This document shows positions 32,029 to 37,397 of a stretch of DNA of 40,660 bases, piece after piece. This DNA is from an uncultured Pseudomonadota bacterium (GTDB lineage: Bacteria; Pseudomonadota; Gammaproteobacteria; Methylococcales; Methylomonadaceae). Position 1 is the first letter of the stretch; each line of letters begins with the position of its first letter. Under the pieces are notes generated by a model. That model worked only from the letters and a program-made list of their open reading frames with translations, had not been told where the DNA came from and did no database searches. Position numbers and translations under genes: made by a program. The stretch covers positions 1 through 40,660 of the forward strand of contig CAIXED010000035.1 in assembly GCA_903918375.1 (NCBI GenBank), written 5' to 3'.

Positions 32029-32056
32029 ATTATTGAGCTTGAGAAAACACAAATTT

Positions 32057-32749
32057 ATGTCGAATTTGAATATTTTGGTTGTCGAAGACGAAGAAGCCAT
32101 CCGCGAAATGCTAATCATGGCGCTTGGTCAAAACCAATTAAATGTTACCGCTGTTGCCAGTGCTGAAGAGGCACTAAAAACCTTGGCTGACAAAACGATG
32201 GATTTACTGGTGCTAGATTGGATGCTACCCGGCATAAGCGGCGTTGAATTAGCTAGACGCTTAAAGAACGACCCGCATTACAAACAATTACCGATCATTC
32301 TGCTGACCGCAAGAGGCGAAGAAGCCGATAAAATTCGTGGTTTAGAAATTGGTGCCGACGATTACATGACTAAACCGTTTTCACCGAAAGAATTAGTCGC
32401 GCGAATTAAAGCGGTGATGCGCCGTAGCGGCAAACTCAATGAAAGTGGTCAAATCAGTGTCGATAGCATTGTCTTAGACCCAGAACAACACCGCCTCAGT
32501 ATTGATGGCAAAACATTAGAAATCAGCCCAACCGAATTTAAGCTGATGCAATTTTTTATGAGCAACCCCGACAAAGTTTACAGTCGCACCCATTTACTGG
32601 ACCAAGTCTGGGGACGCAGCGTTTATATCGAAGAACGCACCGTAGACGTCCATATTCGCCGTCTACGCAAAATTTTGGCTGAATATGGCCGTGAAGATTT
32701 AATCCAAACCGTGCGCGGCTTTGGATACCGCTTTTCAATTACAGGTTAA
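32057..32749 (+). CDS. phoB: Phosphate regulon response regulator PhoB
   Basis: Product of 230 residues. The receiver domain (NILVVEDEEAIREM; phospho-acceptor Asp in LLVLDWMLPGISG; Lys in DDYMTKPFSPKELVARIKAV) joins a winged-helix OmpR/PhoB DNA-binding domain (ISPTEFKLMQFFMSNPDKVY, then VDVHIRRLRKIL and RGFGYRF). The TARGEE and FSPKELVARIKAVMRR stretches are distinctive for PhoB rather than other OmpR types. It activates Pho-box promoters when phosphorylated by PhoR. The gap to phoR is 3 bases. A TTG start at 32033 is possible. Confidence 0.93.
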   Translation: MSNLNILVVEDEEAIREMLIMALGQNQLNVTAVASAEEALKTLADKTMDLLVLDWMLPGISGVELARRLKNDPHYKQLPIILLTARGEEADKIRGLEIGADDYMTKPFSPKELVARIKAVMRRSGKLNESGQISVDSIVLDPEQHRLSIDGKTLEISPTEFKLMQFFMSNPDKVYSRTHLLDQVWGRSVYIEERTVDVHIRRLRKILAEYGREDLIQTVRGFGYRFSITG

Positions 32750-32752
32750 AAC

Positions 32753-34024
32753 ATGCAACGCTGGCAACGCGAAATCAATATCACCATCGGCTTAGTAACA
32801 CCGGCTTTAGTCGTCAGTTTCTTTGTCGGTCATTTATCGACTTTGTTGCTTGCCGTCACCAGCTTTTTATTAATCCGCCAAACTTTAGCTGTCAACGAAC
32901 TGGAAAAATGGCTAAATAAAGGCGCATTTGGTGATAGACGCGACCAAAAAGGCATTTGGGGCGATATTTACTATCACTTGTGGAAAATCAAAAAAACCGA
33001 AAAGAAGCGCAAGAAAAAACTCAGCAAAATGGTGGAACAGTTCAGATCATCAACTGATGCTTTACCCGATGCTGCTGTTGTCATGGGTAGCTATGCCGAA
33101 ATTGAATGGAGTAACCGCGCCTGTCGCGATGTTTTAGGCTTAAAAAAATCTGACAAAGGCCAGCGCGTTCCTAACTTGATCCGTAATCCGCAGTTTGTTC
33201 AATATCTAAAATCCAACGATTACCAACAAAAAATCATTATTCCCTCGCCGGTTAACGAAAACATCATTCTGCAAATCAGCATCGTGCCTTATGGCGATGG
33301 CTTACGCTTGCTATTGGCACAAGATGTCACGCAACTGAAAAACATCGAGCGGATGCGTACCGATTTTGTCGCTAACGTTTCGCATGAACTCAGAACCCCG
33401 CTGACAGTTTTAAAAGGCTATTTGGAAACCTTGGTTGAAATGGACGACGGCCAAAGTATTTACTCACGTTCATTCCAAAACATGGCCACCCAAACCGAAC
33501 GCATGAATCTGTTAATCGACGATTTATTGCTACTGGCACGATTAGAATCGAAAACCAAATCCAGCCAATGCGTTAACGCCCCAGAATTACTTAAACAAAT
33601 CTGCCAAGAAAGCCGCTTACAAGCCAAAGACGCCTGCCGAATTGAGTTGATTCTTGAATCCGAAGCCAAAATCCAAGGCAATGAAGAAGAATTGCGAAGC
33701 GCGTTTAGTAATTTAGTCACCAACGCCCTGAAATACTCACCCGCCGATAAACCAGTCAAAGTCCGCTGGCAGCAAGCCGATGATGGGGTATTTTTTGAAG
33801 TTGAGGACTTTGGCGAAGGCATTTCAAACGCTGATATTCCAAAAATTACCGAACGTTTTTACCGCGCCGAGGTAAAACGTAATCATAAAATCAACGGCAC
33901 CGGCTTAGGCTTGGCGATAGTCAAACATGTATTAGTTAGACACGATGCCAAGCTGGAAATTAACAGCCAAATAGGTAAAGGTAGCCGGTTTAAATGCTGG
34001 TTTCCGGCGAAGAAGATTTGTTAA
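32753..34024 (+). CDS. phoR: Phosphate regulon sensor kinase PhoR
   Basis: Product of 423 residues. Two N-terminal membrane helices (ITIGLVTPALVVSFFVGHL, then LLLAVTSFLLI) precede a Lys-rich cytoplasmic linker (KKTEKKRKKKLSK) and a PAS domain (SSTDALPDAAVVMGSYAEIE). The HisKA helix follows with the phospho-His in FVANVSHELRTPLTVLKGYL. HATPase motifs come last: N-box VTNALKYSP, G1 EDFGEGI and G2 GTGLGLAIVKHV. It phosphorylates and dephosphorylates PhoB in response to phosphate import. No pst-phoU operon is in the window. Confidence 0.94.
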   Translation: MQRWQREINITIGLVTPALVVSFFVGHLSTLLLAVTSFLLIRQTLAVNELEKWLNKGAFGDRRDQKGIWGDIYYHLWKIKKTEKKRKKKLSKMVEQFRSSTDALPDAAVVMGSYAEIEWSNRACRDVLGLKKSDKGQRVPNLIRNPQFVQYLKSNDYQQKIIIPSPVNENIILQISIVPYGDGLRLLLAQDVTQLKNIERMRTDFVANVSHELRTPLTVLKGYLETLVEMDDGQSIYSRSFQNMATQTERMNLLIDDLLLLARLESKTKSSQCVNAPELLKQICQESRLQAKDACRIELILESEAKIQGNEEELRSAFSNLVTNALKYSPADKPVKVRWQQADDGVFFEVEDFGEGISNADIPKITERFYRAEVKRNHKINGTGLGLAIVKHVLVRHDAKLEINSQIGKGSRFKCWFPAKKIC

Positions 34025-34165: not shown

Positions 34166-34447
34166 TTATCCTGCTACATCGACAGGATAAAAATCCGCTC
34201 CGCCATTTAAAGCTATAAATTCACCTCGAAATCATTCAAAGTCAGAGTCATAAGTAATGACAGCATTAACGCCGTTGATAGTCATTTGGTTAATCATCGA
34301 ATAGCTGCTTATAAATTCTACCGCTACTCTAGCCGAGTGCCGCTCAGGAATTGATAACTCGTCTATCTCTAGCTCCGCAAAACGCGATTGAATTCGTTGG
34401 GCAAATCCCGCAGAGGCAGGCTTAGCAGCTAATGCCCTCAACAAAAT
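34166..34447 (-). pseudogene. Broken gene, perhaps PIN-domain (VapC-like), with in-frame TGA
   Basis: From a TTG at 34447 or 34444, preceded by GGTGAGG, the frame reads RALAAKPASAGFAQRIQSRF and so on to INGVNAVITYDSDFE. It meets TGA at 34232-34234, then continues in the same frame as FRGEFIALNGGADFYPVDVA, then G, to a TAA at 34166. The 'aVITYDsDFe' stretch resembles the last strand of PIN-domain toxins. The N-terminal acidic residues of such toxins are missing. It is best read as a decayed gene. The family is tentative. Confidence 0.4.
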
Positions 34448-34473
34448 ATCCTCACCGATATTCCCTTAAAAAC

Positions 34474-34725
34474 TCATAACAACTTCACCAGCGCCGCAAT
34501 AATGGCAACCTGAGCCAACATTAAGCCACCTACCCATTTAACAATGTCCACTTTCAGTTCAAGTAAATCATTTTTTGAGGCGAGAGGGGCAATATCGGCT
34601 TTGGTCGCTAGTTCACCTTGTGATTTTTTTAGCACAGACACAACTGTTTCTCACTGTTGGCGTGTAAATCCACTGGTTTCAAGCTCATTAACTAACTCTT
34701 GTGTATCAAATGTAATTGTAGCCAT
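34474..34725 (-). pseudogene. DUF1640-like coiled-coil protein gene with in-frame TGA
   Basis: From the ATG at 34723-34725, with GGAG upstream, the frame reads MATITFDTQELVNELETSGF, then TRQQ. It hits TGA at codon 25 (34651-34653) and continues uninterrupted as ETVVSVLKKSQGELATKADI and on to DLLELKVDIVKWVGGLMLAQ, VAIIAALVKLL and a final TGA. The whole is a textbook DUF1640 (CCDC90-like) small protein: helical, with a coiled coil and a C-terminal membrane helix. One nonsense codon separates it from an intact 83-residue protein. An antisense ORF at 34544-34753 is its shadow. Confidence 0.75.
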
Positions 34726-34884: not shown

Positions 34885-36264
34885 ATGTTTTCCGAAACCG
34901 TTTTAGCGTTATCACAGTGGCAAATGTCGATAAGCGCTTTACTGCATTTTGTATTTATCCCTTTAACCCTTGGATTGTCGTTACTACTGGTAGCGCTGGA
35001 ATCCTTATATCTACTCACCAACCAAGCACATTACCTAAACGCCAGCCGTTTCTGGGCGCGGTTATTTAGCGTCAACTTTAGCTTGGCTTTAGCCAGTCGC
35101 TTGGTGCTGTTGTGTCAATTTGGCGCGGGGAGTTCTTATTTTTCCCGCTACGTTGGCGATGTGTTTGCCCTGCCGTTGGCGATTGAAGCTTTGAGTAGTT
35201 TCTTTTTGGCTTCGGTGTTGTTTGGGCCATTTTGGTTTGGTTGGGCGCGTTTGAGTAAACAGCAACATTGGCTGATTACTTGCTTATTGGCGCTGTGTCT
35301 TAATCTGTCGGCTTTGTGGTTGATTAGCGCTTATGCGTGGCTGGAAAATCCAGTTGGCGCCAGCTTTAATCTGCATTCGCTACGGATTGAATTAAACGAT
35401 GTCAATCAATTGCTCAACAATCCAGCGGCGATATTTAAAACCCTGCATTTGCTTGGCCTTTGCTATGCAATTGCCGCTGCCAGTGTGTTGGCGATTAGTG
35501 CTTGGCTGGTGTCGAAAAATCCCAACGATCCGCTTGGCCGCATCAGTTACAAACTAGCCGCACCGATTGGCTTAGTGGCGATTTTGCTGGCTTGGCCGAT
35601 TCAACCAACCCCAAACCGTTTGAGCCAAACTATTCAACAATCCGCCCTCAATGGCGGTGATTTGCAAAGCTTATTGCCGGAAATAGAAAGCCATGTCCGC
35701 AATGGTCTGACAGCTTATCAAAGCTTGCTGGCTTGGCGCGATGACGATAAAAACAGCGCTTTGCAAGCCCAAGTCGAGCAACATCAAGTCGATTTAGGCT
35801 ATGCCTTGTTATTACAGCGTTTCACCACGCACATCGAAAACGCTAACGAACAACAAATCAAACTCGCCGCACAATCAGCGTTACCGGCTGAACCTGCGGC
35901 ACTGTTGTGGACTCATCGCCTGTTAATCGGCTTGGGCGTATTGATTATGGCTGGCTTTATTGCCGCTTGTGTGGGCGGTTTAGGCCAAGGCGCGTTGAAA
36001 CCTTGGCTGATTCAACTCAGCATTTTCACTGCACCTCTGCCTTGGTTATTAGGCTTAGGCGATCATTTCCTTAACCAAGCCAGCCAACAACCTTGGCTAG
36101 TCGCCGAATTGTTGCCGAGCTTTTTAAGCTATTCCTCGCTGTCGGTCAGCGCACTGGCGATTAACTTCGGTATTTATCTAATCACCGGCACAGGCTTGGT
36201 CTGTGTTGCTGGGATTTTGATGGCTTACTTAACCTTTAGCCACGCCAGAGGAGCAGCGCAATGA
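34885..36264 (+). CDS. Divergent cytochrome bd-like oxidase subunit I (CydA-like)
   Basis: Polytopic protein of 459 residues with clear CydA homology over its full length. It keeps the heme b595 ligand H21 (SISALLHFVFIPLTLGLSLL), E101 (LPLAIEALSSFFLAS) and the b558 ligand H188 (FKTLHLLGLCY), as well as NLSALWLISAYAWLENPVGA. It lacks the counterparts of E. coli E107 (A109 here), M393 (L347 in HRLLIGLG) and E445 (L391 in PLPWLLGLGDH). The GDESG quinol loop is replaced by a stretch roughly 45 residues shorter. GAGG precedes the ATG. It overlaps the cydB-like gene by 4 bases. It is probably not a normal quinol oxidase. Confidence 0.85.
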   Translation: MFSETVLALSQWQMSISALLHFVFIPLTLGLSLLLVALESLYLLTNQAHYLNASRFWARLFSVNFSLALASRLVLLCQFGAGSSYFSRYVGDVFALPLAIEALSSFFLASVLFGPFWFGWARLSKQQHWLITCLLALCLNLSALWLISAYAWLENPVGASFNLHSLRIELNDVNQLLNNPAAIFKTLHLLGLCYAIAAASVLAISAWLVSKNPNDPLGRISYKLAAPIGLVAILLAWPIQPTPNRLSQTIQQSALNGGDLQSLLPEIESHVRNGLTAYQSLLAWRDDDKNSALQAQVEQHQVDLGYALLLQRFTTHIENANEQQIKLAAQSALPAEPAALLWTHRLLIGLGVLIMAGFIAACVGGLGQGALKPWLIQLSIFTAPLPWLLGLGDHFLNQASQQPWLVAELLPSFLSYSSLSVSALAINFGIYLITGTGLVCVAGILMAYLTFSHARGAAQ

Positions 36265-37397
36265 ATTTAGATTACGAAGTTTTACGTTTAGTCGCTTGGG
36301 CTTTGCTGGTTTTGGCCTTGGTCGGTTATGCCCTTAATGAAGGGATTACCTTAGGCACCAGTATGTTGTTGCCGTTGATTTCGCAAAGCGACAAAGAACG
36401 GCAATTAATCATCGCCAGCATCGCCGCTACCACCCAAGGTCAACAAGCGTGGCTAGTGGCTGTCATCGCGATTTTATTTGCCGCTTGGCCTATCGCTTAT
36501 GCGGTGAGTATGGCCTGTCTGCAACTACCAATTTTGCTGTTGCTATTGGCTTGGCTAATTCGGCCTTTGGGTTTTGTGTTTCGAGATGCGGCTAATGAGC
36601 AATGGCGTCAGTATTGCGACAAAGCTTTGGCAATTGGCGGTTGGGTTTCGACCTTGATGGTGGGGATGATTGCTGGCAATTTGCTAAAAGGCATTCCTTT
36701 TCATATGGATAACGACATGCGGATTTTGTTTTTAGGCGATTTTTCGACCTTGGTGAATCCGTTTGCTTTGTTAGTGGCTGGGATTGCGATTTGCTTGTTT
36801 TTATCGCACGCGGCTTTATTTCTACAACTCAACCCGCAAGCTTCGTTTTATAGCGCCAGCAAAAGCATGGGCTATAAAGCTGGATTTGGTTTTATCGTTT
36901 TATTTGTGCTGACTGGCTTGTGGGTAATTCGCTTGGAAGGCTATCACATCAGCTCCGAGATTCTCACCAATGCCGCCAGTAACCCGTTGATGAAATTCGT
37001 CAAACGCGGCGAAGACTTATGGCTGGACAATTACGAACATCAATATATGGTTTGGGCTTTGCCAAGTTTGGCGATTATTAGCGCTGGATTAGGCTTGTGG
37101 TTGTCGAAAATCGAACGTAATTACTGGGCGTTCCTCAGCAGCTCTGTCGCGGTCACCATGACCATTTTCACCACCGCTTTCACCATGTTCCCGTTTATTT
37201 TGCCGTCTAATCGCTCGCTAAACACCTCATTAACTTTATGGGATGCCAGCGCCAGCCAAGCAACTTTAAACCTGTTGGTGCCGATAGTGGCGGTGGCTTT
37301 ATTGTTGATGGCATTGATTAGCCGCTGGTCGTTTAGACTGCCAAATCATTTAAGCAAAACCGCTGCGTCGAAAACCGGCTGTTCGCAAATCAGCTAA
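36261..37397 (+). CDS. Cytochrome bd-like oxidase subunit II (CydB-like)
   Basis: Membrane protein of 378 residues, the length of E. coli CydB (379). It opens LDYEVLRLVAWALLVLALVG, then has QQAWLVAVIAILFAAWPIAY, GNLLKGIPF, LNPQASFYSAS and a C-terminal FTTAFTMFPFILPSNRSLNT, then SLTLWDASASQATLN, which is strongly CydB-like. The N-terminal TDGFDMG of E. coli is NEGITLG here, so acidic residues differ. Its start overlaps the CydA-like stop, so the two are made together. No CydX-sized ORF follows, and no cydDC is present. Confidence 0.87.
   Translation: MNLDYEVLRLVAWALLVLALVGYALNEGITLGTSMLLPLISQSDKERQLIIASIAATTQGQQAWLVAVIAILFAAWPIAYAVSMACLQLPILLLLLAWLIRPLGFVFRDAANEQWRQYCDKALAIGGWVSTLMVGMIAGNLLKGIPFHMDNDMRILFLGDFSTLVNPFALLVAGIAICLFLSHAALFLQLNPQASFYSASKSMGYKAGFGFIVLFVLTGLWVIRLEGYHISSEILTNAASNPLMKFVKRGEDLWLDNYEHQYMVWALPSLAIISAGLGLWLSKIERNYWAFLSSSVAVTMTIFTTAFTMFPFILPSNRSLNTSLTLWDASASQATLNLLVPIVAVALLLMALISRWSFRLPNHLSKTAASKTGCSQIS

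Follow-up and report, generated by a model that had tools for sequence, protein, structure and literature searches.

A cytochrome bd-like gene pair of Methylomonas without quinol lid and proton-channel acids, which may have been retained for another role

Gene pairs with the family signatures of CydA and CydB are labelled cytochrome bd quinol oxidases by family-level annotation and are taken as evidence for microaerobic respiration in methanotrophs. The stretch of Methylomonas DNA analysed here (40,660 nucleotides in full length, below called the window) carries such a pair, and the question is whether it encodes a quinol oxidase at all. Elsewhere in the same genome, on another contig, lies a further cydAB that is ordinary and has the GDESG loop. 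On balance, the evidence leans towards the pair of the window being a retained pseudo-oxidase, that is, a dismantled cytochrome bd kept for some other role; variants of this kind are probably not what their label says.

The membership of the pair in the cytochrome bd superfamily is clear. The CydA-like protein matches PF01654 (3.6e-75) and the CydB-like protein PF02322 (1.5e-63), both above the Pfam cut-off, and the former is predicted to have the bd fold, the fold being modelled for CydA only. At the level of NCBIfam equivalogs, the CydB-like protein passes the cut-off of TIGR00203 (268 vs 117.3 bits), while the CydA-like protein stays far under the best CydA cut-off (309 vs 968 bits). When the CydA-like subunit alone was modelled with AlphaFold2 from a 24-row alignment, the mean pLDDT was 77.4 and the pTM 0.80; the best structural matches of this model are E. 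coli bd-I and bd-II, with TM-scores of 0.82–0.84 by query length. The first-pass annotation of this DNA had proposed an overlay of the A/B pair on E. coli bd-I as a check; for the CydA subunit, the TM-score to 6rx4_A is 0.84 (by query length). The same annotation had taken both frames as intact and the CydB-like partner as coupled by a short overlap, and the open reading frames bear this out (Table 1).

Table 1. Coordinates of the cydAB-like pair and its two-component neighbours in the window
Feature	Position	Strand	Remarks
PhoB-like response regulator	32033..32749	+	Pfam Response_reg and Trans_reg_C; recurrent upstream neighbour
PhoR-like sensor kinase	32753..34024	+	Pfam PhoR, HisKA, HATPase_c; recurrent upstream neighbour
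cydA-like gene	34885..36264	+	459 aa; intact ORF; bd fold; Q-loop lid deleted
cydB-like gene	36261..37397	+	378 aa; intact ORF; 4-base overlap with cydA-like gene

Residues were compared by alignment to CydA and CydB of E. coli MG1655. The pair had been described beforehand as a non-canonical bd-like one that lacks the quinol lid and key heme and proton residues, and this alignment agrees with that description; the pair is also intact and, as given below, under selection. H19, E99, and H186 are indeed kept in the window CydA (H21, E101, and H188), E107 is replaced by Ala109, and M393 by Leu347. The b595 ligand E445 is lost as well, but not at the proposed Leu391: E445 aligns with Gln398 ('NQASQQPW' against 'AEYGRQPW'), and Leu391 sits in the column of E438, a residue conserved in 73/73 canonical CydAs and lost in the window. 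Three of the five heme-ligand residues are therefore kept. Further changes concern E74 (L76), K252 (Q), and E257 (N), and Y243, D239, and R448 are also lost.

The Q-loop had been estimated as about 45 residues shorter than in E. coli, which is close to the measured difference of about 46: where E. coli CydA has 49 residues between the columns of E257 and I307, the window CydA has 3. Missing is the E. coli stretch of about 259–306, and the window CydA still aligns over the stretch that follows it (307–383). In PMC13189123, residues 259–306 of the Q-loop are described as a lid that closes over the quinol and completes the quinol site. The first-pass annotation was to be given up if the Q-loop and the equivalents of M393 and E445 were found elsewhere in the protein; the alignment instead leaves the lid absent and the two ligands replaced. 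The same deletion recurs in all relatives of this kind, hereafter called variants. For the counts, 35 variant CydAs (33 of the genus and two of another genus of the family, g19) were set against 73 canonical ones, L031 being merged with L032 owing to identical last 200 residues, and L137 (genome G018) and the copy of G029 standing outside the counts. The lid segment comprises 3 residues in 34/35 variants and 1 in the other one, compared with 49–50 in 73/73 canonical CydAs. The quinol site of the qOR1 family is accordingly incomplete: the lid is present in 0/35 variants, E257 is kept in 1/35 (72/73 in canonical CydAs), and the R298 column is gapped in 35/35, with K252 and Y243 absent from the window in addition. 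K252 and D239 are kept in 28/35 and 27/35 variants.

The proton route is affected in both subunits. According to PMC13189123, the proton wire consists of K53, K57, E74, and E107 of CydA together with D58 and D105 of CydB, and a similar route through CydB is described in PMC6853902. E74 is kept in 0/35 variant CydAs (72/73 canonical) and E107 only in L035 (1/35 vs 73/73); K57 persists in 17/35, and K53 is not a clean marker, with Gln at this position in the canonical family sequences L038–L044. In the window CydB, the H-channel residues D58, D105, and K109 are replaced by Q, V, and A, and D29 and W57 by T each, while W12, W63, and R100 are kept. These replacements are general among the 33 variant CydBs counted, that is, apart from L004, which is cut by the contig end, and L035, which has no adjacent cydB: position 58 is acidic in 0/33 (46/47 canonical CydBs), position 105 in 0/33 (45/47), and K109 is kept in 3% vs 98%, but W12 and R100 are retained in 33/33 and W63 in 32/33. 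The qOR1 route through E107/E74 and D58/D105 is thus not found, and nearly all variants have lost the acidic core of the H-channel, by which heme d is supplied with protons. Moreover, a start motif of CydX was detected in 0/33 variant loci as opposed to 32/41 canonical ones by a scan that relies on this motif and would pass over an unusual CydX. Given the published residue roles, the variant would possess neither a closed quinol site nor a normal proton supply to heme d, from which we infer that it would be unable to run protonmotive quinol:O2 oxidation.

The heme ligands have fared differently. H186 is kept in 32/35 variant CydAs, M393 in 30/35, E445 in 29/35, H19 in 24/35, and E99 in 19/35; the H186/M393 pair of heme b558 survives in 28/35 and all five residues in 11/35, and no ligand is universal. 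The subclade of the window (with L004, L005, and L015) lost M393 and E445, and with only H21, E101, and H188 remaining of the five, its members would be expected to carry an incomplete set of hemes at best. L017-type rows lost E99 and mostly also H19, and H19, H186, and M393 are all gone from the G018 copy. With ligands eroding differently by subclade, the candidates for the function that remains are gas or redox binding through heme and a role as scaffold. Most members keep the H186-centred site, which speaks for binding or redox based on heme; a scaffold role or slow decay would also be compatible with the ligand losses of G018 and some other members. Six variant CydAs (L030, L031, L033, L036, L037, and L065) have a CxxCH motif around the N138 position, where the alignment places a transmembrane helix rather than a periplasmic loop, the topology being inferred; in several variant subclades, N138 is replaced by His, partly along with the loss of H19.

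A lid-less CydA is found in 35/37 Methylomonas genomes, including that of the window, and a full-length match without internal stops in 34/37. The far-diverged copy of G018 is lid-less too; in G029, the variant match is in pieces that do not cover the lid region, and in G033 (81% complete) the CydA variant was not found, a second CydB fragment being present. Outside the genus, the variant occurs in two genomes of g19 (G068 and G134). Among the best matches listed for 369 genomes of the class, which also comprise full-length matches of 25–30% identity (five of them grouped with short-loop CydAs in the quick tree described below), the only one of the variant kind is the window's own. In the one-contig genome G027, the canonical cydAB is in fragments (G027:C1:877222-878531) and the variant pair is intact; no canonical CydA was seen in G019 or in the two g19 genomes. 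The variant thus persists without an intact canonical CydA in these genomes, which argues that it is independent of a canonical partner. In another genome, a canonical CydA match contains an in-frame TAG, real or due to a sequencing error (G026:C43:19428-20132). No earlier description of a lid-less Methylomonas variant was found among the literature matches listed.

The variant is under purifying selection, about threefold weaker than that on the ordinary copy. Between the window and a 94% identical relative, dN is 0.026 and dS 0.343 (ratio 0.074); eleven other variant pairs, partly overlapping and not all independent, gave 0.08–0.24, and variant CydBs (variants only) gave 0.08–0.20, compared with 0.02–0.05 for six canonical CydA pairs, all by a simple counting method in which two variant and three canonical pairs are saturated. 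Such ratios argue against a dead gene, and the faster rate points to looser constraint. It may be supposed that the variant is a duplicate in slow decay under relaxed selection, losing its parts piecemeal, with the residual constraint reflecting recent function or the avoidance of a toxic misfolded membrane protein. This is the strongest of the competing explanations, although an unlikely one. It would account for the raised dN/dS, for the loss of different ligands in different subclades and of three in the G018 copy, and for the long end branches, which exceed 0.7 changes per column in 7/33 variant rows and reach 3.1 in G018, against 0–0.12 in 13 canonical rows of the genus. It fits poorly with 34 full-length genus copies free of internal stops, with ratios far below 1 throughout, and with G027, where it is the canonical copy that broke up.

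In the genomic neighbourhood, phoBR lies upstream of the variant in 17/21 loci (as the next genes in 9, with one divergent gene between in 6, and with other opposite-strand ORFs in 2), and four loci lack it. Between phoR and the cydA-like gene, the window has a minus-strand stretch (34313-34525) that matches a small gene at the same place in L062 (51% over 71 aa), which is antitoxin-like by eye and stands beside a PIN-like gene. In L051, a fusion of SCO1, di-heme peroxidase, and cytochrome c domains is encoded upstream of phoB (L051:2330-4246), and the divergent gene that separates phoR from the variant encodes a MASE1-PAS-GGDEF protein (L051:6314-8458); these domains were assigned by Pfam on L051 only, and relatives of the fusion (cluster 10) lie upstream of phoB in 5/21 loci. 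Downstream of canonical cydAB in other Methylomonadaceae, there is a fusion of CydX with GGDEF (L146:9000-9569; PF08173 at 1-27 and PF00990 at 36-188, Pfam on L146). Similar proteins occur in L151, L150, L163, L153, L100, and L086, all seven sequences have a GGDEF motif of degenerate appearance, and no title on such a fusion was found among the literature matches listed.

The descent of the variant was followed in a quick tree of 105 CydAs (11 of 116 having been dropped beforehand, by judgement, as near-duplicates) and in a careful tree of 54 chosen CydAs, from which most of the longest branches were left out. In both, the variants nest inside the long-Q-loop CydAs of other genera of the family, with a starred support of 100 in the quick tree and 100/100 in the careful one for the clade that unites variants and family canonicals, which is the placement expected of qOR1. 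The quick tree needs two label changes for the variants, with the separately labelled G018 row falling among them; in the careful tree, they form one clade with an unstarred support of 93/66, which suggests a single origin. L087 has two cydAB in tandem, and the second of them is the nearest canonical relative; it keeps the residues and has no CydX start motif downstream, while the first is accompanied by a CydX-GGDEF-like gene on the same contig (L087:6001-12565). An origin by recent duplication from the canonical cydAB of Methylomonas itself (L001 and its kin) was rejected, the forced grouping having a p-AU of 5e-14. Variant and canonical cydAB alike are repeatedly accompanied by a DUF502 gene and by a phosphoketolase-like one (the latter named by eye), and phoBR precedes an ordinary cydAB in two genomes from a genus of the family other than Methylomonas (L150 and L155, 2/24 canonical loci examined). 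Taken together, the tree and the shared neighbours make the variant look like an old native copy, and the ordinary Methylomonas bd like another lineage.

The first-pass annotation had thought of kinship with the non-quinol (OR-type) families; OR-N and OR-C were reportedly defined by Murali et al. in 2021. This placement is disfavoured by the nesting in a long-Q-loop quinol-oxidase clade and by the phoBR locus of ordinary cydAB, in trees built without OR-N or OR-C sequences. Apart from kinship, the variant might be an oxygen reductase that uses a donor other than quinol, such as cytochrome c, as had also been proposed. The lid is lost in all 35 variants, many of which keep heme residues, and the six CxxCH motifs and the cytochrome c fusion in 5/21 loci can be read in the same direction. 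This explanation is nevertheless improbable: the proton-channel acids are lost together with the lid, the tree places the variant among quinol oxidases, the six motifs align to a transmembrane helix, and neither the window nor 16/21 loci have the fusion. For the window itself, another donor is not indicated, with no CxxCH in either subunit and no cytochrome c among the five neighbours scanned with Pfam.

It is equally doubtful that the variant still works as a quinol oxidase, binding quinol at a remodelled site and receiving protons by another path. Retention of K252, D239, and, in the 11 variants mentioned above, all five heme-ligand residues speaks for it, and some of these 11 could, judging by their residues, reduce O2 slowly with protons from elsewhere. 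Loop length as such is known to vary, since it differs between the bd-I and CIO types according to PMC5322542. However, the short-loop enzymes retain the very segment deleted in the variants along with E107 and E257 (7/7), and the window member has lost K252, D239, M393, E445, and R448 as well.

The recurrence of phoBR might suggest a membrane sensor module paired with this two-component system, but that is very improbable, for phoBR also precedes ordinary cydAB, so that the adjacency looks inherited, and is missing from four variant loci. Membership in the Pho regulon was rejected too: in a scan for a two-repeat Pho-box, the score clearly beat shuffles in 1/21 upstream regions, and this locus (L059) has no adjoining phoBR.

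The pseudo-oxidase reading can be put as a sequence of events. An ordinary long-Q-loop quinol oxidase of the family would have lost CydX, the quinol lid, and the acidic H-channel core, probably in an ancestor that Methylomonas shares with the two g19 genomes; in most of the genus, a second bd lineage would have provided for oxidase activity. Left in place would have been the heterodimer fold, the tryptophan of CydB by which E. coli bd-I holds a quinone, and, in most members, the H186/M393 pair. The genes may then have been retained by purifying selection for another role as a membrane complex, most members presumably being still able to bind heme; candidate roles are gas or redox binding, or a low-turnover electron sink. 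A more specific version, which must be considered tentative, holds that this is a non-respiratory bd-fold family, genus-wide and selected, that serves as a membrane heme sensor or a gas- or redox-binding device, having shed the quinol lid, CydX, and the acidic proton wire but kept the fold and, in most members, a b-type heme site.

If this more specific version is correct, nature would have provided a "proton-channel knock-out" of cytochrome bd. The family also offers natural variants in which the fold and heme binding are separated from the quinol lid and from the proton channel; what these two parts do is under current study in bd oxidases, which are of interest as drug targets.

Among known systems, E. 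coli CydABX (bd-I, qOR1; 6rko and 6rx4) shares with the pair the predicted fold, the order cydA-cydB, and the long-loop descent, and with the window member also the post-lid stretch and H19, E99, and H186. It differs in possessing the lid, E107, E74, E257, E438, M393, and E445, in CydB D58, D105, and K109, and in CydX, which was not found by the motif scan at variant loci. The Methylomonadaceae cydABX beside phoBR (L150 and L155) has the same phoBR neighbours and is close to the variants in the tree, but keeps the catalytic residues tested, and in L150 it is followed by CydX fused to a GGDEF-like stretch. The short-Q-loop CIO is similar to the window CydA in total length (about 460 aa); it is shortened elsewhere, however, with 47–51 residues in the lid segment and with E107, E257, M393, and E445 kept in 7/7 CydAs, and an assignment of the window CydA to this type, with its core lid lost and the following stretch kept, was rejected. 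OR-C is linked with heme c, and in CydAA' residues have been lost from CydA'. According to PMC10839748 and PMC13189123, OR-N, OR-C, and CydAA' share with the variant the lack of a quinol site. Unlike OR-N and OR-C, the variant appears to descend from a quinol oxidase, as judged by its neighbours and by its position in a tree of CydAs other than the OR families.
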